Shown here piece by piece: positions 4,118 to 41,805 of a stretch of 47,248 nt of DNA (position 1 is the first letter of the stretch; every line of letters begins with the position of its first letter). This stretch comes from Drouetiella hepatica Uher 2000/2452 (lineage in GTDB: Bacteria > Cyanobacteriota > Cyanobacteriia > Elainellales > Elainellaceae), in NCBI GenBank assembly GCA_019359505.1, contig JAHHHD010000040.1, forward strand, positions 1-47,248, read 5' to 3'. The notes beneath the pieces are model-generated. The model was not told the DNA's origin and searched no databases. It saw nothing but the letters and a program-made list of their open reading frames with translations. A program made the translations under genes and the position numbers.

Positions 4118-5709
4118 ATTCTTGAACTAATTTGATAAAGAGAAAATTGATTCGTTGTTGCCGGATCTTGAAAAGAATAAACTAGCTGCGGCTCAATGTT
4201 CTGCTGCTTAGCTAGAGACAATAAATGTTCGCTGGGATTGTAGAGAAAAATGTGGCTGAATCCATCTGGCAAATCTAAACGATCAGGTGCAACGTGACTA
4301 AGGAGCTGCATATTAATCTGCGGCTGTAGTTCTTTAGCAAATGGCAGAATAGCGGCTAAAGATTTATCGGAAATTATGAGTGGATGAGGAGCTTTATAAA
4401 TAATTGAGGGAATTTCTACGTCAAATTCTGACCAGCCCCACCAAGTTCGACCCAATGAGCCAATGCTACAGGATAAGAGACTACCTGAAAGCAGAAGAAT
4501 AGTAATCCATTGCCAGAGATGAGGTCTAGAAGCAGGTAATTGGTGGGCCAGTTTTGATGTTAACAAGTAGGCAACTGCAAGGAAGATCATTGTATGACAA
4601 ACTAGAAAATATCTTTCGTTTAAGCTACGCCTACCTCCTAGAGTTAAATCTGCAAATAAAAAAGGCAATGTGGTCAACCCGACTGTTAGGAGAATAAGCA
4701 ACCAGACTCTAACGGGAGCTTTGGAATATAAATAATAAAGTGCGTACAGGATAAAGATCAGAGTTGGAGCTGCCAAGTAAATAAAGGAATAGTGATATTT
4801 CAGATGCCACGCAAAAAAGATATGAGAGATAGCTGTTCCTGCACCTTGCATTAAGTTGATGGGCAGCATGGGCAACCTTGTCCATGCCAGCGTTTGCGCA
4901 GCTATATCTCCATTCAGCCATACGATCGACAGCCAGGGCAGAAGACAGACAATAGTGATTCCTAATGCAGCACCATAAGCCATGACTGTCTTAGTCAACC
5001 GGAAGCGTTCCATACACAAAACATAAAGTCCTTGTGTAATCATCACTAAACCTGTAAGTAAATGGCAGTAAAATGCCATGATTATAGAAAGTGTATAGAG
5101 TCCCCATTTCAGCTTTGCGGGTTGCCGTATAGCTTGAAGCAATAACACAAAAGAGATGAGGCTAAGGGTGAGCCAAAAACTATAGGGGCGAATCTCTTGA
5201 GCATAGCGAAGGTTAATCGGAGATACGGCAAAGAGTGCCATTGCCATCCAGCCTATCGTTGAGGATGCAAAGAGTTCTAAACAAAGCAAATAAATGACCG
5301 GAAAAGATAGCAAACTACCTATCACAGATAGGCTGCGCATTGCAAATTTAGAGCTACCAAAGCACTGCGCCCAGACTCTTGCCACCAGAAAATAGAGCGG
5401 CGGTAACTGAGGCTCTTCTTTGGCTAATCCTGCAATGGTTCCAATTGCCCCTTTCTCTAAAGAGGGAGTCTGATATTTTAGAAAATCGCCAGCCTTGATA
5501 ATCTGTCCATTCAAAAGATCTTTTTCTACATCCTGTGCCGAATAGCCAGATACTCGCAGTAGGGTATAGCTCTCATCAAGCCAGTATGGCTTTTGATCAA
5601 GGTTAATGCATCTCAGAAATACGCCGATCGCCACTACACAAATAAGAAAATAGAGTAATCCTCGTTCTCGTAGCTTAGTTAAGTCTAAAAGCATTGAGCG
5701 CATCTTCAT
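4114..5709 (-). CDS. Membrane glycosyltransferase, ArnT/PMT-like (GT39/GT83 type)
   Basis: 531 residues, strongly hydrophobic with roughly 10-12 membrane segments. The first extracytoplasmic loop carries YWLDESYTL, the acidic DE pair typical of GT-C enzymes that use polyprenyl-phosphate sugars, followed by QLPPLYFLVARVW and LRYAQEIRPYS, which are standard in this cyanobacterial family. It probably glycosylates a lipid or protein outside the inner membrane. The hydrophilic C-terminal tail (about 430-531) would be periplasmic. Start could be ATG 5709, 5703 or 5694. A related but divergent gene lies at 39158-40843. Convergent with benE, overlapping by 4 bp. Confidence 0.85.
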   Translation of the reverse strand: MKMRSMLLDLTKLRERGLLYFLICVVAIGVFLRCINLDQKPYWLDESYTLLRVSGYSAQDVEKDLLNGQIIKAGDFLKYQTPSLEKGAIGTIAGLAKEEPQLPPLYFLVARVWAQCFGSSKFAMRSLSVIGSLLSFPVIYLLCLELFASSTIGWMAMALFAVSPINLRYAQEIRPYSFWLTLSLISFVLLLQAIRQPAKLKWGLYTLSIIMAFYCHLLTGLVMITQGLYVLCMERFRLTKTVMAYGAALGITIVCLLPWLSIVWLNGDIAAQTLAWTRLPMLPINLMQGAGTAISHIFFAWHLKYHYSFIYLAAPTLIFILYALYYLYSKAPVRVWLLILLTVGLTTLPFLFADLTLGGRRSLNERYFLVCHTMIFLAVAYLLTSKLAHQLPASRPHLWQWITILLLSGSLLSCSIGSLGRTWWGWSEFDVEIPSIIYKAPHPLIISDKSLAAILPFAKELQPQINMQLLSHVAPDRLDLPDGFSHIFLYNPSEHLLSLAKQQNIEPQLVYSFQDPATTNQFSLYQISSRI

Positions 5710-5874
5710 CTCTAAAATCTATGAGGAATCCCAGTTAGTAGCTATAAGCCTTTAGCAGTCGTCATATCTAGCTAAAATTGGGGAAAGGGCAATCTGATAA
5801 TACGTGAAATATTGGCTGATACGCGATCGCATTCTCTACGAAGAAACGTGAGCCAGATTCAAGGCAATGTGAAA

Positions 5875-5901
5875 CGATCGCTAGAAATGCTCTAGCGATC
5901 G
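5875..5901. repeat. Inverted repeat containing GATCGC
   Basis: Two perfect 11-bp arms (CGATCGCTAGA and its complement) around AATGC. It lies between the membrane glycosyltransferase and hemA, 73-99 bp beyond the hemA stop. It may form a hairpin in the hemA 3' transcript; it also contains two HIP1-like cores. Confidence 0.5.
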
Positions 5902-5922
5902 CAACGAATGCTTAAACGGGAA

Positions 5923-5946
5923 TAATGACCGTTGCAACGGTCATTA
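5923..5946 (-). terminator. Perfect 24-bp palindrome downstream of hemA
   Basis: The half-site TAATGACCGTTG is followed immediately by its exact complement, 29 bp beyond the hemA stop codon. On the hemA transcript it could fold into a hairpin, but it lacks a loop and a U tract, so a protein-binding site is also possible. Called as a terminator only because of position. Confidence 0.4.
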
Positions 5947-16440: not shown

Positions 16441-17511
16441 TCAAAGTATTCTATCGGTTAGAAAGTAGGTGGTCATTTCGCCTTTACCCTTCACCTCGAT
16501 TGCCCCCCGCAGGTCAAACCTATACTTGTGTTTCAGCAGCTCGTAGGTTTGAGCAGTCACCTGAATGCGTCCTGGCAGACCATGAGACTCCATCCGGCTT
16601 GCAGTATTCACCGTGTCGCCCCAGAGGTCGTAGGTAAATTTTGTGGTGCCAATCACCCCTGCCCGCACCGAACCTGTACTCATTCCCATCCGCATCATGA
16701 GAGGTTGCTCGGCTTGCCCTGGTAGATTAGGTACAGTAAACCGAGCAATTTCTTTTTGCATATCCAGCGCTAGTTCCGCAACGGCTTCCGCATGATCCGA
16801 TCGCGCTGTGGGTAGCCCCCCTACTACCAGATAGGCATCACCAATAGTTTTAATCTTTTCTAAACCATACTGTTCTACCAGGCGATCGAAGGCTGAAAAA
16901 ATTTGGTTTAGCAGCTCGACTAGCTCTGTGGAAGAGAGCGCCTCTGAGAGCTGGGTAAAGCTAACGATATCGGCAAACAAAACTGTGACTTCGGCAAAGC
17001 TGTCAGCGATCGTTTTTTCTCCCTTTTTGAGGCGATCGGCAATCAGTTTCGGCAAAATGTTCAGCAGCAGCCGCTCAGATTTTTCCTGCTCTGCTTGAAT
17101 TTGCCTTAAAAACGCCTGCTCTTGATCGCGAAGTCGCTTTTTTTCCAGACTCGCGCCAATTCGGGCTTTTAGCAGCGTTGGATTAAAGGGCTTAAACAAA
17201 TAATCTTCTGCGCCCAGCTCAATGCACCGTACCACGCTCTCAATATCATCTAAAGCTGAGATCATGATCACAGGAATATGCCGCAGAGCCGCATCAGATT
17301 TGATATGTTCCAAAACCTGATAGCCATTCATTTCTGGCATCATCACATCCAATAGCACCAGATCAAAAGGCTGTTGGCGAAGGGTTTTCAGCGCCTCTAA
17401 TCCATCTTCGGCAACAACAATGGCGTGTCCCTGCTTCACTAGACGGCGCGAGAGCAGATCCCGATTCATTTCGTTGTCGTCTACTACCAGGACAAGACTC
17501 TGGTTAGCCAT
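16441..17511 (-). CDS. Response regulator-adenylate cyclase fusion
   Basis: 356 residues from ATG 17511 (MANQSLVLVVDDNEMNRD). The longer frame to 17586 begins inside a tandem repeat and is not favoured. Residues 5-125 are an intact receiver (Asp 55 in LVLLDVMMPEMNG, Lys in FKPFNP). After a helical linker, residues 170-350 are a class III cyclase with both metal Asp (LFADIVSFT; KIKTIGDAYL), adenine-type Lys and Asp (K221, D295), and transition-state Asn and Arg (DTVNTASRM). This pattern predicts ATP, giving cAMP under control of a histidine kinase. A paralogous single receiver lies 90 bp upstream. Confidence 0.93.
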   Translation of the reverse strand: MANQSLVLVVDDNEMNRDLLSRRLVKQGHAIVVAEDGLEALKTLRQQPFDLVLLDVMMPEMNGYQVLEHIKSDAALRHIPVIMISALDDIESVVRCIELGAEDYLFKPFNPTLLKARIGASLEKKRLRDQEQAFLRQIQAEQEKSERLLLNILPKLIADRLKKGEKTIADSFAEVTVLFADIVSFTQLSEALSSTELVELLNQIFSAFDRLVEQYGLEKIKTIGDAYLVVGGLPTARSDHAEAVAELALDMQKEIARFTVPNLPGQAEQPLMMRMGMSTGSVRAGVIGTTKFTYDLWGDTVNTASRMESHGLPGRIQVTAQTYELLKHKYRFDLRGAIEVKGKGEMTTYFLTDRIL

Positions 17512-17562
17512 ATTGGCATCTCTTGTTGAAGTGGACAGCAGGCGCACTGGCGATCGATCTAC

Positions 17563-17620
17563 GGCTGCATTAAGGGGTGGCTGCATTAGGCAGTGGCTGC
17601 ATTAAGCGGTGGCTGCATTA
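17563..17620. repeat. 16-bp tandem repeat between two regulator genes
   Basis: GGCTGCATTAAGGGGT, GGCTGCATTAGGCAGT, GGCTGCATTAAGCGGT and a partial fourth unit GGCTGCATTA follow head to tail. The last units overlap the 3' end of the upstream response regulator and encode its final residues NAATA and stop. The first units create an in-frame upstream start for the cyclase. Confidence 0.8.
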
Positions 17621-32072: not shown

Positions 32073-32720
32073 TCAGGGGTGCAGCAACCCACGTCGGCTG
32101 GCCTCAGAAATGGCCTCGGTGCGGCTAAGCACATTCAGCTTGGGGAAGATATTGCGTAGGTGAGACTTGACGGTGGTTTCGCTAATGAATAGACTCAGAC
32201 CGATTTCTTTATTGCTTTTGCCTTGTGCCAATAGCGCCAAGACGCTCAGCTCGCGCGCGGTTAGCTCCGTGGTGCCGAGGCTAGCAGCCAGCTTTGCCAC
32301 CAGCCCCGGCGCGATGCAGGTTTCACCCCCATGGACTTGCCGGATGCAGCTCAGCAACTCCTCGCGCTGCGCGTCCTTCAGCAGATAGGCTTTCGCCCCC
32401 GCTTTGACCGCCCTGGAAATGTCGTTGTCTGTGTCGAAGGTGGTGAGCACGATGATCCGCGCTGAGTTATCTCTCGTGCGGATGGCTTGGATCGCGCCGA
32501 CCCCGTCGAGCAAAGGCATACGGAGATCCAACAGCGTCACGTCAGGACGGTGCTCGATCCAGGCGGTGACGGCTTCAAGACCGTTGGTCGCCTCGCCCAC
32601 GACGGTCATGTCTTCCTGACGACCGATCATCGTCGCCAGCCCTTCACGCACCACGGCATGGTCATCCCCGATCAAAACACGGATTTTTCCAGGCGGGCGC
32701 AGGGTTGAGGAGGGTCTCAT
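32073..32720 (-). CDS. NarL-type response regulator
   Basis: 215 residues. Receiver: DDHAVVREGLATMI, acceptor Asp in VTLLDLRMPLLDG, Thr in VLTTFDTDND and Lys in YLLKDA. LuxR-type HTH: LTARELSVLALLAQGKSNKE and ISETTVKSHLRNIFPKL. It starts 9 bp after the histidine kinase stop, so the two form a pair. The likely regulated genes are the hydrolase, azoreductase and SDR directly downstream. Confidence 0.95.
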   Translation of the reverse strand: MRPSSTLRPPGKIRVLIGDDHAVVREGLATMIGRQEDMTVVGEATNGLEAVTAWIEHRPDVTLLDLRMPLLDGVGAIQAIRTRDNSARIIVLTTFDTDNDISRAVKAGAKAYLLKDAQREELLSCIRQVHGGETCIAPGLVAKLAASLGTTELTARELSVLALLAQGKSNKEIGLSLFISETTVKSHLRNIFPKLNVLSRTEAISEASRRGLLHP

Positions 32721-32729
32721 AGGGCAGGG

Positions 32730-34901
32730 TTATTTGAATGAAAGGTCGATGCGCACGCGAGTTCCTTCCCCCAGCGCACTGCGAATCAGCAGCTTCCCGG
32801 TCATTCTTTCGACCCGTTCCTGGATGCCGATCAGCCCAAAGCCGTCGTGGATTGCGTTGGGATTGAAGCCGCGACCGTCATCGCTAAGCTCCAAGAAAAA
32901 TCCGTCTGGGGTGAAGGCGATCGCAGCGTCGAAGCGGGTGGCCTCCGAGTGACGAAGGGCATTGTGGAGAACTTCCTGGCCGATCCGCAGCAGGTTTTCC
33001 TCCCATTCCGGCGGCAGTTTTCGACTGGCACCGTGAACGGAGAAATTTAGCTGGAGTGAAGTGCCCACGGTCATTTTCAGGAACAGGGTTTCGAGGGCAT
33101 CCGGTAGCGTTTTGTCCTCCAAGGCCAGGGGGCGGAGGGCGCGAACCGAGCGTCGGGCCTCGCCCAGGCTGTCGCGGGCGAGTTCGCTGGCACGGGCGAC
33201 ATGGGCATCAGATTCTAACCGCATGCCCTTGGCTGTCGCGTCTTCGGCGGCATCGAGCTGAACGATGATGCCGGTAAAGCCTTGAGCCAGGGTATCGTGG
33301 ATGTCACGGGCCAGGCGGTTGCGTTCTTCCATCACGGCGGCGTCGCGGCTTTGGGCGGTCAGACGGATGATCTGAATGGCCAGCATAGCTTGGTGAGCCA
33401 AGGCGCGGGCCAGCTCGATTTCCTGAAAATGGAAGGAACGTTTGCCCCGGAACCGGATACTGATCAGGCCAAGCACCTTTCCGGCTATGAGTATGGGAAC
33501 GCAGAGAGTGGCGACGATGCCTTTCTGGACAATGCGGGCGATGATTTCCCGGACTTCTGGGTTGTCCACAGACTCGCCCATCCAGGGGTGCCAGGGCTGA
33601 TCAGAGGGGGTATGCAGCTTTACGCGGGGCGGATCGGCTTCCAGATCGCCCAGCACACAGTGTTCACCACTTTTGAAAAAGACTGTCCAGATAGGATGAT
33701 GTTCTGGAGGACCCATAGGTTGGGTCATTTTAGCCTGCTCAGGTGTGGCTAAATGAAAGGTCTCATCTTCATAGTTAGCCAACAGCTGAACTCTGCCGAT
33801 TGTCTCGACCATTTCCCAGACCCCAAGGCCATGGGCACCCAATTGCCGATTGATGGTGTGAAGGACATGTTCGAGCAGTTTTTCTGGCTGCGTTTCCTGG
33901 GAGAGTTCGGCTAGGGTGTGGGTGAGGGCACTGAGCTGCCCGCGCGCGAGGTGCTCGGATGCCTGTAGGGCTGACGCTGCCCGGTCGCGTTCGATCGCAA
34001 TGCTGGTGATGTCGGTGAGCTGATCGATGAGATGAAGCTGATGCGCGGTGGGCAGACACGGAGTGCGCGAGTAGGTGGCGAAAACGCCGATCACCTTGCC
34101 ATCCTGAGCGAAAACGGGTGAGGACCAGCAGGCTTTCAAGCCATGGCTAAGGGGCAGATCGGGCAGCTCCTCCCACAGCGGGTCGGCGGCAATATCTGGG
34201 ACGATCACCTGCTCACCCTGCCTGGCTGCCCTTGCACAGGCACCACTGCTAAACTCGAATACCCTGCCATCCATAGCGCGGTTGTAGCTGTCCGGCAGAG
34301 TGGGAGCCGCCCCGTGCCGAAATCGGTACTCATCCCAATCCAGCAGTAGGATCGAACATAGCGAGCCTGGCGACAATTCGCCGACCAAATGGCAAAGCGC
34401 GTCCAGTGTGCGGCAGAGCGGCTGGCTCTTGGCAATCATTTCGAAAATTTGCTTCTCGCCCGCCAGCAGCGCCTCTGCCCGTTTGCGATCCTCGATGTCG
34501 GTGTTCGTGCCATACCATTTGAGAACCGCTCCCGCAGCGTCCCGCAGGGGAATGGCACGGAACAAAAACCAGCGATAGTCCCCGTCATGGCGGCGCAAAC
34601 GAGCCTCTGTTTCTCCTGGTTCGCCCGATGCTAATATTGAGTTCCAGTAGGTCAATAGCCTGACCAGATCTTGCGGCAGCACTGCCTGCTGCCAGCCCCA
34701 ACCGCTGGCTTCCTCCAGATTTAGCCCTGTGTATTCCCGCCATCGCTGGTTGAGAAAATCGATGTGCCCGTCGGAACGCGAAGTCCACACTAGCTCCGGA
34801 ATAGAGTCCACTGCAATCCGGAATGAATCCTCAACTGATGGGGAATTCGATAACCCGGCCGGATGCTGATGGTTCTCATGACGGGTGGTGGGGGTGGACA
34901 T
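32730..34901 (-). CDS. Sensor histidine kinase (PAS-GAF-GAF-HisKA_3-HATPase)
   Basis: 723 residues from ATG 34901. The frame extends to a GTG at 34970 that falls in the upstream palindrome, so the inner start is preferred. No membrane segment: cytoplasmic sensor. PAS at about 25-140 (VWTSRSDGHIDFLNQRWREY; WYGTNTDIEDRKRAE), GAF at about 155-310, GAF at about 345-530, HisKA_3 with EERNRLARDIHDTLAQGFTG (phospho-His in DIHD), and HATPase with GQEVLHNALRHSEA, LSDDGRGFNP and GLIGIQERVERM. This is a NarX/DegS-like kinase paired with the NarL regulator next to it. The signal is unknown. Confidence 0.94.
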   Translation of the reverse strand: MSTPTTRHENHQHPAGLSNSPSVEDSFRIAVDSIPELVWTSRSDGHIDFLNQRWREYTGLNLEEASGWGWQQAVLPQDLVRLLTYWNSILASGEPGETEARLRRHDGDYRWFLFRAIPLRDAAGAVLKWYGTNTDIEDRKRAEALLAGEKQIFEMIAKSQPLCRTLDALCHLVGELSPGSLCSILLLDWDEYRFRHGAAPTLPDSYNRAMDGRVFEFSSGACARAARQGEQVIVPDIAADPLWEELPDLPLSHGLKACWSSPVFAQDGKVIGVFATYSRTPCLPTAHQLHLIDQLTDITSIAIERDRAASALQASEHLARGQLSALTHTLAELSQETQPEKLLEHVLHTINRQLGAHGLGVWEMVETIGRVQLLANYEDETFHLATPEQAKMTQPMGPPEHHPIWTVFFKSGEHCVLGDLEADPPRVKLHTPSDQPWHPWMGESVDNPEVREIIARIVQKGIVATLCVPILIAGKVLGLISIRFRGKRSFHFQEIELARALAHQAMLAIQIIRLTAQSRDAAVMEERNRLARDIHDTLAQGFTGIIVQLDAAEDATAKGMRLESDAHVARASELARDSLGEARRSVRALRPLALEDKTLPDALETLFLKMTVGTSLQLNFSVHGASRKLPPEWEENLLRIGQEVLHNALRHSEATRFDAAIAFTPDGFFLELSDDGRGFNPNAIHDGFGLIGIQERVERMTGKLLIRSALGEGTRVRIDLSFK

Positions 34902-34953
34902 GATCTTAATTCTGGTAATACACCGTTTAGAGCCAGCTGCTAGTCCTGAGTTC

Positions 34954-34995
34954 GTGGCGTCCTGCCTCACATCAGATGTGAGGCAAGACGCTCAC
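34954..34995. promoter_or_regulatory. Near-perfect 42-bp palindrome between divergent operons
   Basis: Inner perfect arms TGCCTCACATC / GATGTGAGGCA around one A (34963-34985) are continued, after one mismatch, by GCGTC / GACGC and, with a single-base bulge, GTG / CAC. It lies 53-94 bp upstream of the histidine kinase start and 223-264 bp upstream of the dCache-cyclase start. A binding site for a dimeric regulator, or a hairpin in a leader RNA, are both possible. Confidence 0.55.
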
Positions 34996-35217: not shown

Positions 35218-37362
35218 ATGCGATTGCTCAACAATTTCAGTATCAAATCAAAGCTTATTGTGATGCTGCTGGCAGTCAGCAGTTGCTCCATTTTATTGAC
35301 GGCATACATAGGTTATCGCAGTGGGCAAACGAACTTGACTAATCGAGTTTTCAACCAGTTAACCAGCGTTCGAGCATCCAAGGCGTATCAAATCGAAGCC
35401 TACTTCAAAAACATTCAAAACCACACCCAAACCTTGAGTGAAGATCCATCAGTGATTGCTGCGATGCAAGAGTTTGACGCAGCGTATCGGCAGCTTCAAT
35501 CTGCTAATGTGCCTGATTTATTTGACGAAAAGATTGCCACCTACTACCGCAACGATTTTTTGCCCCGGTTAGCAAAAGTAGATGAAGGTTCACCCATTCT
35601 TCAATCCTATACGCCAAAAGCGACAGCTTCGCGTTATCTCCAATATCACTATATTGCTGCGAATGCTAATCCAGTAGGCAAAAAACATTTCTTAAATGCT
35701 GCCAAGGATGGTAGTGAATATAGTGACACTCACGCCCGGTATCACCCAATTTTTCGCAAGCTCATTGAGAAGTTTGGTTACTATGACATGTTTTTGATTG
35801 ATCCAGAGGGCACGATCGTCTACACCGTCTTTAAAGAGACCGACTTTGTTAGTAACTTTGAGACTGGTCCTTACAAAGATAGTAACTTGGCGGAACTTAG
35901 CGCGATCGTGCGGGAATCAAAAGAAAGGGACTTCTCAAAAATCGTCGATTTTGCTGCCTATTCTCCATCCTATGGCGCACCTGCTGCCTTCATTGCGGCT
36001 CCCATTTTCAATCAATCCAAACTCATTGGGATTCTGGCGTTTCAAATGCCAGTGGATGAGATTAACAATGTGATGACAGGCAATCGTAACTGGGAAAGCG
36101 ATGGTCTGGGAAAAACAGGAGAAAGTTATCTGGTAGGACGTGACTTTTTAATGCGATCGATTTCTCGGTTCCTAGTGCAAGATCCGAAAGGATATGCTCA
36201 GGCATTGCGATCGATAGGCTTTAAAGAACCAGACATCAACCGCATTCAGCAATACAACACCTCAATTCTGCAACAAAATGTGCAAACAGAGGCAGTGGAA
36301 GAGTCTTTAGCGGGGAGTCAAGGAACGCAAATCATTGATAATTACCGGGGTATTCCGGTTCTCAGTTCCTATGCACCTCTCAAAATTGATGGATTAGATT
36401 GGGTGATTTTGTCAGAAATGGATCTGGCGGAAGCGTATGCCCCGATTTATTCTCTCCAAAACCAGATTCTAGTTTATGCAACCTTACTGATGTTGCTGGT
36501 CACTCTGATTGCGATGGCGATGGCGTATCTATTTGTCAAACCGATTAACAAACTGATTGAGAGTGCCCGCAAAGTTGCAGCAGGTGAACTCACCGCGATC
36601 GCTCCTCTGGAAACCGAAGATGAATTTGGGGAACTGGCGAGATCCTTTAATGCTATGGTTCGCAGTTTGCGGACTCAGACCAACCTAGTGGAACAGAAAA
36701 ATCAGGAAAACGAGCAATTATTGCTGAGTGTGTTTCCGGCAGCGATCGCCAAACGGCTCAAACGAGGCGAGAAGGATATTGCCGAAGATGTGTCCAATGT
36801 GTCGGTTTTGTCCGCAGAACTGACCGGGTTTTCTAAACTATCGGCTTCGCTGACAGCTTACGAAATTGTCGCCATCTTGAATGATTTGGTGACCGCCTTT
36901 GATGAAGTCACAGAACGCTATGGTATGGAGAAAATAAAAACAATTGGCGATAGCTATCTGGCAGTGTGCGGGCTATCGGTGCCCTATCTGGATCATGACA
37001 GACGGGCAATCGATTTTGCCATGGAAATGCTTGCCATCATGCGCCGCTTTACCCATGAAAGGGACTTTAAGTTGAATATTCGGATTGGCATTAATTCGGG
37101 TGATGTGGTAGCTGGAATTGTTGGCAGGAATAAATTCATCTATGACGTTTGGGGCGACACGATTAACCTCGCCAATGCCCTGCGATCGGTTTGCCCCCCT
37201 GGGTCTATCCTCGTGGCACAAGCGGTTCACCATCGTTTACATGATCTCTACGAGTTTGAGGCAATGGGAGAACTGGTTGCGAACGGCAAAACGAAAGTGG
37301 ATGCGTGGCGGTTGAAAAATACCCAGTTATCAGTGCAGCCGGAGGGAGTAAAAATTTCATGA
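35218..37362 (+). CDS. Membrane dCache-HAMP-class III cyclase homologue with altered active site
   Basis: 714 residues. Membrane segment about 13-33, extracytoplasmic dCache-like sensor about 45-400 (AAKDGSEYSDTHARYHPIFR; LIDPEGTIVY; GESYLVGRD), second membrane segment 417-440, HAMP (FVKPINKLIESARKVAAGEL), helical linker with LLLSVFPAAIAKRLKRGEK, cyclase domain about 525-700. Adenine-type Lys 574 (EKIKTIGD), metal Asp 578, Asp 643 (YDVWGD) and Asn 650 are kept. The first metal Asp is Glu 534 (LSAELTGFS) and the transition-state Arg is Ala 654 (INLANAL). Activity is therefore uncertain: it may be weak, pseudo-enzymatic or need a partner. Coupled to the channel gene by an ATGA overlap. Confidence 0.9.
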   Translation: MRLLNNFSIKSKLIVMLLAVSSCSILLTAYIGYRSGQTNLTNRVFNQLTSVRASKAYQIEAYFKNIQNHTQTLSEDPSVIAAMQEFDAAYRQLQSANVPDLFDEKIATYYRNDFLPRLAKVDEGSPILQSYTPKATASRYLQYHYIAANANPVGKKHFLNAAKDGSEYSDTHARYHPIFRKLIEKFGYYDMFLIDPEGTIVYTVFKETDFVSNFETGPYKDSNLAELSAIVRESKERDFSKIVDFAAYSPSYGAPAAFIAAPIFNQSKLIGILAFQMPVDEINNVMTGNRNWESDGLGKTGESYLVGRDFLMRSISRFLVQDPKGYAQALRSIGFKEPDINRIQQYNTSILQQNVQTEAVEESLAGSQGTQIIDNYRGIPVLSSYAPLKIDGLDWVILSEMDLAEAYAPIYSLQNQILVYATLLMLLVTLIAMAMAYLFVKPINKLIESARKVAAGELTAIAPLETEDEFGELARSFNAMVRSLRTQTNLVEQKNQENEQLLLSVFPAAIAKRLKRGEKDIAEDVSNVSVLSAELTGFSKLSASLTAYEIVAILNDLVTAFDEVTERYGMEKIKTIGDSYLAVCGLSVPYLDHDRRAIDFAMEMLAIMRRFTHERDFKLNIRIGINSGDVVAGIVGRNKFIYDVWGDTINLANALRSVCPPGSILVAQAVHHRLHDLYEFEAMGELVANGKTKVDAWRLKNTQLSVQPEGVKIS

Positions 37363-38801
37363 ACAGTGTGGCGCTACAAAACAACTTGCTGATCTGGGCG
37401 ATCGCGCTGGTACTCGGATTTCCGCTGCTGGTGATCATCCTGGGAGAGGCGATTCATCGCTTAAAGCGGCGTGGCAAACCGATCGCCGCAACCCTACGGC
37501 TCGTTCGCAACTTGATTCTGCCCGTTCTCGTTTTTTTGCTGTTCATGCAGCATGTCCTCAAACTTGACACCGATGGCAGATGGGTGAAAAGTATTGAGAC
37601 CTTACTTTGGGTCTGCGTGATTCACGCGGCGCTCTCCCTGCTCAACGTGATTTTGTTTGAACAGGCCGAAGCCGATACCTGGCGTTCTAGGGTGCCCAAA
37701 CTACTGATCGATCTGGCTCGATTGTTTCTGATTTTGCTGGGCACCGCGATCGTGCTGGCAACGGTTTGGAATGCGGATCTGGCAGGATTAGCAACCGCTT
37801 TGGGCGTAAGTTCGATCGTGATTGGTTTGGCACTTCAGGACACGCTGGGTAGCGTCACCTCCGGCATTGCGCTCCTATTTGAGCGTCCCTTTTCGGTGGG
37901 AGATTGGTTAAATATTGGAGACATCGTGGGGCAGGTCACCGATATCAACTGGCGAGCGGTTCGCCTCCAAACCCTGGAACGCGAAATGGTGGTCATCCCC
38001 CACAAAGTCGTCGGCGGTGAAACGATCCGCAACTTCAGCCAACCGCAGCGCCTCCATGCAGAACGAATCCAGATTGGGTTTTCTTACAAGGACCCGCCCA
38101 ATCTAGCAAAGCAAGTATTGAAAAGCACCGCATTGGAAACTCAGGGCATCTTAACCAATCCGGAGCCTCAAATTTTCACCCTTGCTTATGATGATTCTGC
38201 CGTGACCTATGAGGTGAAGTTTTTCATCCAGAACTATGGAGATTTGGAGGAAATTCGCGATCGCTTCATGACTCGCGTCTGGTACGCTGCCCAACGAAAT
38301 AACTTATCTATTCCTTTCCCTATCCGCACGCTTTACCACTTTCACGGTCCCACCACTCAAGCTAAAGGGCTTTCCAAGAGAGTTGCTGATAGCCTGCAAT
38401 CGATTCCAGCCTTTGTGCCCTTAGATAAAGAGGGAAATGGACAGAGTTTGTCTCAAGGAATTGTGCTTCAGCACTTTGGTGCAGGTGAAAAGGTTGTGCG
38501 ACAGGGAGACCCCGATAGTCCCTTGTATATCATTGTTTCAGGACAGGCAATTCTCTCGGTTGTAGATGATCTACATAGAGAACACGAAGTATTGCTCCTC
38601 AAAGTAGGCGAGTTCTTTGGCGAAATGGCGCTCTTTTCCGGTGAAGCCAGCCCGGTATCAGTAACGGCTGCTGACGATCTAGAAGTGATGATGATTTCTT
38701 CCGGTGTTGTTAATCAGATGATTGAACGTCAACCAAGCTTTGCCCGTGAAATTGGTCAAATTCTAGAAATTCGGCGAAGAGCGATTCAATCAGTAGAATA
38801 A
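37359..38801 (+). CDS. MscS-type channel with C-terminal cyclic-nucleotide-binding domain
   Basis: 480 residues from ATG 37359, which overlaps the cyclase stop as ATGA and has GGAGGGAG about 9 bp upstream; the longer frame from 37305 lies within the cyclase gene. Membrane helices lie at about 10-30, 50-70, 80-102 and 118-138. The MscS pore helix and beta-domain entry are GLATALGVSSIVIGLALQDT and FERPFSVGDWLNIGDIVGQV. cNMP domain about 365-470 (VRQGDPDSPLYIIVSGQA; VGEFFGEMALFSGEASPVSV). The phosphate-binding cassette has Ser at 431 where an Arg is usual. This is the layout of bacterial bCNG channels. It likely conducts ions when ligand binds. Confidence 0.92.
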   Translation: MNSVALQNNLLIWAIALVLGFPLLVIILGEAIHRLKRRGKPIAATLRLVRNLILPVLVFLLFMQHVLKLDTDGRWVKSIETLLWVCVIHAALSLLNVILFEQAEADTWRSRVPKLLIDLARLFLILLGTAIVLATVWNADLAGLATALGVSSIVIGLALQDTLGSVTSGIALLFERPFSVGDWLNIGDIVGQVTDINWRAVRLQTLEREMVVIPHKVVGGETIRNFSQPQRLHAERIQIGFSYKDPPNLAKQVLKSTALETQGILTNPEPQIFTLAYDDSAVTYEVKFFIQNYGDLEEIRDRFMTRVWYAAQRNNLSIPFPIRTLYHFHGPTTQAKGLSKRVADSLQSIPAFVPLDKEGNGQSLSQGIVLQHFGAGEKVVRQGDPDSPLYIIVSGQAILSVVDDLHREHEVLLLKVGEFFGEMALFSGEASPVSVTAADDLEVMMISSGVVNQMIERQPSFAREIGQILEIRRRAIQSVE

Positions 38802-41094: not shown

Positions 41095-41490
41095 TAGCCT
41101 TCACTGCGATCGAAGTAAGGGGGTTACTTCAGCGAAGCTTAGAGAGACTTCTGCTCTCAATTCCATGTCATGACTGAATAGCGGTACACTTAGTGGTTAG
41201 ATACAGTTTTGAGAAATCAAGATTTTATTTGACACCCTATCCTGAATTTTATTGATAGTGCTGCGCAACGCCATTGAGCGCAGAGGCTTTAGTTGTGGTT
41301 CTCAGAGCTACTACTACCGTACTTAGCTAATACGCACGGCATTCTATAAAACAGGCAACAAAGGAAACCTGATGAATATGGGCTGGTCACCATATCAACC
41401 CATCAGGCAGATTCGTTCCAATGGAAACAGTGACGGATGTCCGGGTGTCTATCAACCCTCAAAACCCTCAAAAAGGTTAGGCGTATCTTT
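41095..41490. promoter_or_regulatory. Upstream region of ccmK with leader hairpin
   Basis: Non-coding. ATTCTATAAAACAG (41341-41354) could supply a -10 element. A hairpin at 41368-41407 has arms CCTGATG / CATCAGG with inner TATGG / CCATA. Both would lie in or before the ccmK leader. No further gene is seen. Confidence 0.4.
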
Positions 41491-41805
41491 ATGTCAATTG
41501 CTGTTGGAATGATTGAAACTCTGGGGTTCCCGGCGGTTGTCGAAGCGGCGGACGCTATGGTGAAGGCAGCTCAGGTTACCTTAGTCGGCTACGAAAAAAT
41601 TGGCAGTGGTCGAGTCACCGTCATCGTGCGGGGCAATGTTTCCGAAGTTCAGGCCTCGATCGCTGCGGGCATTGAGTCGATTAAGCGGGTTAGTGGCGGC
41701 TCTGTGCTGTCAACTCACATCATTGCGCGCCCCAATGAGAACCTAGAGTATGTGCTGCCCATTCGCTACACCGAAGCAGTCGCGCAATTTAGAGCTGTGA
41801 TGTAA
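41491..41805 (+). CDS. ccmK: Carboxysome shell protein CcmK (BMC hexamer)
   Basis: 104 residues from ATG 41491 ([20 protein letters not shown]), the standard CcmK start; the longer frame to 41437 is rejected. One Pfam00936 domain, which forms the hexagonal facets of beta-carboxysomes. The pore loop KIGSGR, HIIARP and the C-terminal [15 protein letters not shown] match CcmK1/CcmK2 rather than CcmK3/CcmK4. No ccmL, ccmM, ccmN or Rubisco gene follows, so it is a solitary copy. A clear terminator follows. Both sides carry transposase remnants, which may explain its separation. Confidence 0.95.

Follow-up and report, generated by a model that had tools for sequence, protein, structure and literature searches.

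A 47,248-nt stretch of the cyanobacterium Drouetiella hepatica Uher 2000/2452 (contig JAHHHD010000040.1, positions 1 to 47,248 of the forward strand; here, the window) carries a gene for a membrane sensor with a class III cyclase-like domain. It is directly followed by a gene for an MscS-type mechanosensitive channel with a C-terminal domain resembling cyclic-nucleotide-binding domains (CNBDs). This arrangement raises the question of whether the two proteins form a minimal signalling module, in which the cyclase makes the nucleotide that opens the channel. The sensor-channel pairing is real and old, and it persists despite the loss of key residues on both sides. Direct coupling of sensor and channel is therefore considered the best explanation.

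The sensor gene ends in the ATGA that starts the channel gene, and a ribosome-binding-site-like sequence, GGAGGGAG, lies 10 nt 5' of the channel ATG, both as a sequence-only reading of this DNA had described (Table 1). A longer in-frame channel start is available at a GTG at 37305. The sensor is ordered as transmembrane segment, dCache, transmembrane segment, HAMP, coiled helix and class III cyclase-like domain. Pfam recognizes Guanylate_cyc (152.5 bits; cut-off, 21.9) and HAMP (52.8; cut-off, 25) in the sensor, and MS_channel_2nd (66.1; cut-off, 20.2), MS_channel_3rd (41.5; cut-off, 21) and cNMP_binding (62.8; cut-off, 27.5) in the channel. The dCache_1 score of the sensor is 32.1 bits, under the cut-off of 45. 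The domain was assigned because two paralogous sensors, L104 and L103, exceed that cut-off (46.1 and 45.6 bits) and because the AlphaFold2 (AF2) model of the extracellular part is mostly confident, with a predicted local distance difference test (pLDDT) value of at least 85 in 31 of 37 ten-residue blocks. The same model places helices at residues 9-74, 408-454 and 469-505 and a cyclase-like fold at 521-699. In Foldseek, the C-terminal end of the sensor matches class III cyclases, whose fold is present, and the channel matches MscK, MscS and YnaI, with the MscS pore and beta domain present. None of the 50 Foldseek matches listed for the sensor corresponds to the dCache part. The proposed domain order of dCache, HAMP, cyclase domain, MscS channel and cyclic nucleoside monophosphate (cNMP) domain is thus borne out.

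Key residues lost in sensor and channel

Six positions are key in class III cyclases: the first metal Asp, a Lys, the second metal Asp, an Asp, an Asn and an Arg, corresponding to sensor residues 534, 574, 578, 643, 650 and 654. In alignments with intact cyclases from this genome and from relatives, the window sensor reads E-K-D-D-N-A at these positions. The base-specifying Lys574 and Asp643 are present. Of the two metal Asp expected of an active class III cyclase, only Asp578 stands, next to Glu534, and the transition-state Asn-Arg pair is reduced to Asn650 by Ala654. The EKDDNA set is common to five rows (the window, L081, L001, L002 and L023), which argues against a sequencing error; that explanation and a pseudogene were both rejected on these five rows together with the strong selection described below. 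An Arg two residues past position 654 was also rejected as a replacement for the lost Arg, because an Arg or Lys at that place also occurs beside an intact Arg (Microcoleus-type, NIAHRLK); the Cyanobium branch has Ser there. The window cyclase is predicted to be catalytically dead or crippled. As Lys574, Asp643 and one metal Asp are kept, its cyclase-like domain may still bind ATP.

Table 1. Features of the sensor-channel locus in the window.
Feature	Position	Strand	Basis
Sensor gene, 714 aa, ATG start, TGA stop	35218..37362	+	Open reading frame (ORF) list, Pfam, AF2 model
dCache extracellular sensor domain, aa 47-398	35356..36411	+	dCache_1 under cut-off; paralogues; AF2 model mostly confident
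HAMP domain, aa 435-485	36520..36672	+	Pfam
Class III cyclase-like domain, aa 523-700	36784..37317	+	Pfam, Foldseek, residue states
Glu534, replacing first metal-binding Asp	36817..36819	+	Alignments
Lys574 (base recognition) to Asp578 (second metal Asp), kept	36937..36951	+	Alignments; invariant in alignment A1
Asp643 (adenine-specifying), kept	37144..37146	+	Alignments; invariant in alignment A1
Ala654, replacing transition-state Arg	37177..37179	+	Alignments
GGAGGGAG, ribosome-binding-site-like	37341..37348	+	Sequence
ATGA, channel ATG overlapping sensor TGA	37359..37362	+	Sequence
MscS-type channel gene with C-terminal CNBD-like domain, 480 aa	37359..38801	+	Pfam, Foldseek
MscS beta and C-terminal domains, aa 162-318	37842..38312	+	Pfam
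CNBD-like domain, aa 371-457	38469..38729	+	Pfam cNMP_binding, 62.8 bits
Ser431, replacing phosphate-binding-cassette Arg	38649..38651	+	Alignments

Similar losses are found among 55 cyclases paired with channels of the window's kind (type II). This set combines 29 cyclases from a pattern scan, 25 from a phylum survey and the window, and since it includes close relatives, its members are not independent. The catalytic Arg is missing in 46 of the 55. The first metal Asp is missing in 19 rather than the 20 scored, because the loss in L007 comes from an insertion splitting the gene. The Lys, second metal Asp and Asp are kept in 46 of the 55, 37 of which lack the Arg. In the Elusimicrobia locus L031, an apparent absence of the second metal Asp was discarded as an artefact of masked sequence, in which X had been written as A. 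Almost all cyclase sites are lost in the C11 branch, and the C54 and C11 paralogues lack nearly all of them; in the unlinked sensor of genome G105, all six key positions are changed (by eye).

C11-type sensors in L104 (1157-3757), L103 (5446-8235, minus strand) and L110 (5131-7797, minus strand) carry a C-terminal globin (PF00042, 49-53 bits). Their domain order is dCache-HAMP-pseudocyclase-globin, and the cyclase domain is devoid of nearly all catalytic residues.

Cyclases outside such pairs served as controls. In the window genome, neither the first metal Asp nor the Arg is present in any of the three paired cyclases, whereas all six unpaired ones retain the Arg and both metal Asp. The same three residues are retained in 47 of 47 other cyclase rows from relatives. 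These rows comprise 29 loci, led by each genome's best match, and 18 cyclase domains of G388 and G396, taken from 19 further domains among the matches listed for these two genomes, with a partial one left out; four of the 47 rows repeat the same gene. No channel of this family lies within approximately 1.5 kb of the 6 and 29 control loci, to which this check applied, the 18 bare domains falling outside it. A response-regulator-cyclase gene with all six catalytic residues intact is located at 16441-17586 (minus strand) in the window, about 18 kb from the pair.

The channel retains a C-terminal CNBD fold, as in bacterial cyclic nucleotide-gated (bCNG) or cNMP-gated MscS channels, and has Ser431 in place of the phosphate-binding-cassette Arg expected of them. 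At this position, 53 of the 54 type-II channels, including that of the window, have Ser and one has Asn; the other MscS-CNBD channels have Arg (32 of 35) or Cys (3 of 35). The remaining cassette is well conserved among near relatives of the window channel. Free-standing CNBD proteins of 150-156 aa, also with Ser for Arg, are encoded at L128 (3944-4414, minus strand) and L133 (3956-4408, plus strand). Their CNBDs are 53-59% identical to that of the window channel, and no channel or cyclase lies within the 8 kb examined around them.

Production of a cyclic nucleotide by this sensor appears unlikely, since the Asn and Arg of mammalian class III cyclases were reportedly found by Yan in 1997 to be essential for catalysis. 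Canonical holding of the nucleotide by the window channel appears unlikely as well, because the accessible part of a study on CRIS describes the cassette Arg as required for the cAMP response (R288Q; PMC3854790). The sequence-only reading had drawn a path from cyclase domain through nucleotide to channel opening. This path is not supported: Glu534, Ala654 and Ser431 contradict it, as does the Arg-less cassette of all 54 type-II channels.

Conservation of the gene pair

The pattern scan with the channel covered the genomes of 84,980 species and reaches close relatives only. It returned 34 loci, 31 of them cyanobacterial. A sensor-type gene lies upstream of the channel in 29 of 29 cyanobacterial loci, L028 and L033 being left out of the count as they begin within the channel. 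The upstream sensor is in two frames in L006 and split by an insertion in L007. The phylum survey was an even draw of 386 genomes, with four candidates scored per genome, and yielded a channel match (E 1e-30) in at least 58 of them. Neighbourhoods were examined for all 66 listed matches besides the window, which divide into 30 type-II channels, 2 CNBD-only matches and 34 others. Together with the window, the type-II channels (31-91% identical) amount to 31 from 26 genomes, and 29 of these 31 have a same-strand sensor gene upstream. The sensor and channel genes of L110 are separated by a globin-like ORF (by eye).

When the sensor itself served as query in a second search, 29 of the 386 genomes gave a match: all 26 genomes with type-II channels and 3 of the other 360. 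None of the three extra matches is full-length and close: G074 and G328 match the dCache-HAMP part only, and G262 is 33% identical over part of the protein. This search scored two candidates per genome and overlooked the window genome's own third sensor (in C11), so it is unable to prove absence. In G105, which carries channel L100, the sensor is present on another contig and thus unlinked. The window genome itself has three sensor-channel pairs, in C15, C54 and C11. Its 6.4 Mb contain nine PF00211 domains, and a same-strand upstream one is found at each of its three family channels. Chance adjacency was rejected on these numbers taken together with the 29 of 31 type-II channels and the sensor search. 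The pair recurs in other genomes; a restriction to this one, which the sequence-only reading had named as a refutation, does not hold. With the start codon closest to the aligned window start chosen in each case, the overlapping start (gap of -4) is found in 14 of the 28 pattern-scan loci with both genes placed; among 28 survey loci it occurs in 3, of which L082 is the record of L001.

Phylogenetic trees were built for the channel without the cassette columns and for the cyclase without the six key columns; both are quick trees with long branches. The 54 type-II channels form one clade with a support of 100 in the Shimodaira-Hasegawa-like approximate likelihood ratio test (SH-aLRT), and the cassette state changes twice on the channel tree, on the type-II stem and in L140/L141/L146. 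On the cyclase tree, the 55 paired cyclases group beside intact unpaired ones (SH-aLRT 88, below the strong level of 95). The Arg changes at least four times on this tree and the first metal Asp seven times, one of these being the L007 artefact. The main groups match between the two trees (by eye), indicating that sensor and channel mostly moved and duplicated together. The suggested order of events is a single loss of the channel Arg, followed by repeated catalytic loss in the cyclases.

Selection was assessed as the ratio of nonsynonymous to synonymous substitution rates (dN/dS) by the Nei-Gojobori method. Between the window and L023, L081 and L001, the cyclase-domain dN/dS equals 0.037, 0.039 and 0.026, respectively, with dS near saturation for L001. 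In the same three comparisons, the whole sensor has values of 0.065-0.073, the channel of 0.031-0.067 and the channel CNBD of 0.037-0.093. Cyclase-domain values are 0.086-0.137 in three other Arg-less comparisons, and in L020 versus L022, which have the intact set, the domain reaches 0.17 and the sensor 0.36. The low dN/dS, a sign of purifying selection, indicates that the altered cyclase domain is retained for some function.

Several related loci are arranged differently. In Planktothrix rubescens PCC7821 (L007:3408-4322, minus strand), the sensor is split by a transposase-like ORF (by eye) and the channel ORF is intact; in P. paucivesiculata (L008), the sensor ORF is unbroken. A second sensor-like gene in two frames (L002:3898-5307 and 5130-5932) follows the channel on the same contig, and a PstS-type phosphate-binding-like gene (by eye) adjoins the C11-type channels at L107:5448-6539 and L110:1517-2602 (minus strand). 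Proteins from two genomes (L197:1994-5990; L198:480-4445, minus strand) are 46-48% identical in the dCache-HAMP part (aa 1-481), have no such cyclase and adjoin a response-regulator-like protein bearing a cyclase domain. In the window, genes for a LuxR-type response regulator and a PAS-GAF histidine kinase, 9 nt apart, are divergent from the sensor gene (32073-34970, minus strand), and a gene for a BMC-domain protein of the carboxysome shell type is located at 41437-41805.

How the sensor may act on the channel

We favour, with a probability of about 0.48, the reading that the pseudocyclase sensor controls the channel through contact with its CNBD-homology domain, the second-messenger step having been lost. 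An outside ligand would bind the dCache domain of a presumably dimeric dCache-HAMP receptor and shift HAMP and the pseudocyclase dimer, which probably still holds ATP via Lys574, Asp643 and Asp578. The shift would then reach the CNBD-like domains of the channel through protein contact, and the sensor would thereby bias a tension-gated channel. A CNBD homologue of this sort is on record in KCNH channels, where, according to the accessible part of PMC7515569, it engages another domain and cyclic nucleotides do not gate it. A broader picture can be drawn tentatively, with the odds somewhat against it as a whole. The locus may represent a bacterial receptor-operated channel, in which an ATP-binding pseudocyclase dCache receptor on an MscS-type channel gates by CNBD-homology contact. 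It would have evolved from a cyclase and cNMP-channel operon that dropped the messenger and was duplicated as a unit, one branch gaining a C-terminal globin.

If true, a second-messenger pathway was naturally shortened to direct coupling with the gene pair retained, and stages with an intact, a half-lost and an almost fully lost cyclase survive in living cyanobacteria. Such loci would then offer a system for the replacement of a diffusible signal by contact, for the roles of pseudocyclases and for receptor control of MscS channels. Annotating them as "adenylate cyclase + cAMP-gated channel" can mislead.

Several observations weigh against direct coupling. Nine of the 55 paired cyclases retain all six canonical residues next to an Arg-less channel, and some of these sensors may therefore still produce nucleotide. 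Two type-II channels, L100 and L107, have no nearby cyclase, and no second sensor was found in the L107 genome by the search scoring only two candidates per genome. L016, L019 and L088 carry an Arg one position past the cassette Arg. Loss of a single Arg is no proof of lost binding or activity; according to the accessible part of PMC4215837, Ma1120, in which Ala replaces the Asn of the Asn-Arg pair, is active, though it still has its Arg. The structure model of the channel is weak (pLDDT 67; predicted template modelling score, 0.30), and the contact between sensor and channel is argued by analogy.

Among the alternatives, the CNBD-like domain could bind another small molecule via a Ser-type pocket, with the pseudocyclase as a sensor of ATP or another ligand and coupling of the genes serving stoichiometry or co-expression, so that the proteins need not touch. 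CRP-family domains with other ligands exist, the Ser in 53 of 54 type-II channels is non-random, and near relatives conserve the remaining cassette well. On its own, this explanation gives no reason why a degenerating sensor stays with the channel in each of three paralogous pairs and also in a genome with the two genes unlinked, and we regard it as unlikely. There is even less to recommend a relic, in which the sensor of an ancient cAMP-channel operon drifts and the channel acts as a plain osmotic valve. The graded loss of catalytic residues over the clade and the dN/dS of 0.086-0.137 would fit such decay, but all these ratios are far below 1, those of the window comparisons (0.026-0.039) are lower than for the whole sensor, and half of the pattern-scan loci retain the overlapping start.

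Two further explanations keep the nucleotide. The window sensor could form a heterodimer in which an intact partner cyclase from the same cell supplies the Arg, the channel answering the resulting cAMP. In mammalian cyclases, C1 and C2 share the sites between them. Of the two cyclase domains of AC9, the first gives the better alignment with the window domain (108.6 bits, against 75.6 for the second), and intact cyclases are available in the genome, one of them in the window at 16441-17586. The proposal has little chance, given paralogues (C54, C11) without nearly all sites and a channel without the binding Arg; the window domain would also be a poor C1-type partner because its first metal Asp is changed too. 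A working cyclase and cNMP-gated channel, acting as a single minimal signalling module, is comparably improbable at this locus. It can draw on the fold and domain order, the conserved base-binding Lys and Asp, the intact-looking cyclases among the 55 and analogous intact-site pairs in another clade, but it is opposed by Glu534, Ala654 and Ser431 and by the recurrence of EKDDNA in five rows.

Intact pairs elsewhere and known systems

A same-strand cyclase adjoins the channel in 8 of the 34 remaining survey loci (L114, L115, L117, L124-L126, L136 and L144), with a gap of 732 nt in L136. All eight combine the cassette Arg with a cyclase that has both metal Asp, the Asn and the Arg, and seven of them probably belong to the picocyanobacteria (family code f19). 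The channel gene comes first in these intact pairs, except in L144, and a candidate cyclase ATG overlaps the channel stop by 4 nt in L114, L115 and L117. An opposite-strand cyclase lies nearby in six survey loci (L116, L129, L134, L135, L139 and L143). In Elusimicrobia L031 and L032, the cyclase follows the channel, and L032 has both sites intact. The three cyclases tested (L115, L144 and L032) are CHASE2-cyclases. The accessible part of PMC7522525 comments on adenylate cyclases close to a "cAMP-regulated" MscS channel in marine Synechococcus/Cyanobium islands. The minimal cyclase-channel module of the sequence-only reading therefore fits these distinct intact-site pairs and not the window locus, with its Glu534, Ala654 and Ser431. 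A nucleotide-signalling module of cyclase and cNMP-channel probably exists, though not here.

No description of a degenerate sensor-channel pair was found in the literature on bCNG, MscS and CHASE2-cyclase topics, most subscription journals being outside the coverage. The bCNG channels, reportedly described by Caldwell in 2010 and Malcolm in 2012, are members of the MscS superfamily with a C-terminal CNBD. The window channel likewise has an MscS core followed by a CNBD; it differs in that the phosphate-binding Arg is replaced throughout its clade and that 29 of 31 channels have a dCache-HAMP-cyclase neighbour. CyaG is a class III adenylyl cyclase with transmembrane segments and HAMP. The window sensor shares with this type the class III catalytic fold, HAMP and the adenine-type Lys and Asp, but lacks the first metal Asp and the transition-state Arg and is tied to a channel gene. 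Arg-type MscS-CNBD and cyclase pairs resemble the locus in having the genes side by side, with a 4-nt overlap available in L114, L115 and L117. They differ by a CHASE2 sensor (in the three tested), by having the channel first except in L144, and by their intact sites. The KCNH channels (EAG/ERG/ELK) also have a CNBD homologue (CNBHD) that is not nucleotide-gated, the domain contact at the window being an analogy only. However, they are voltage-gated K channels with the contact partner in the same polypeptide and no cyclase.

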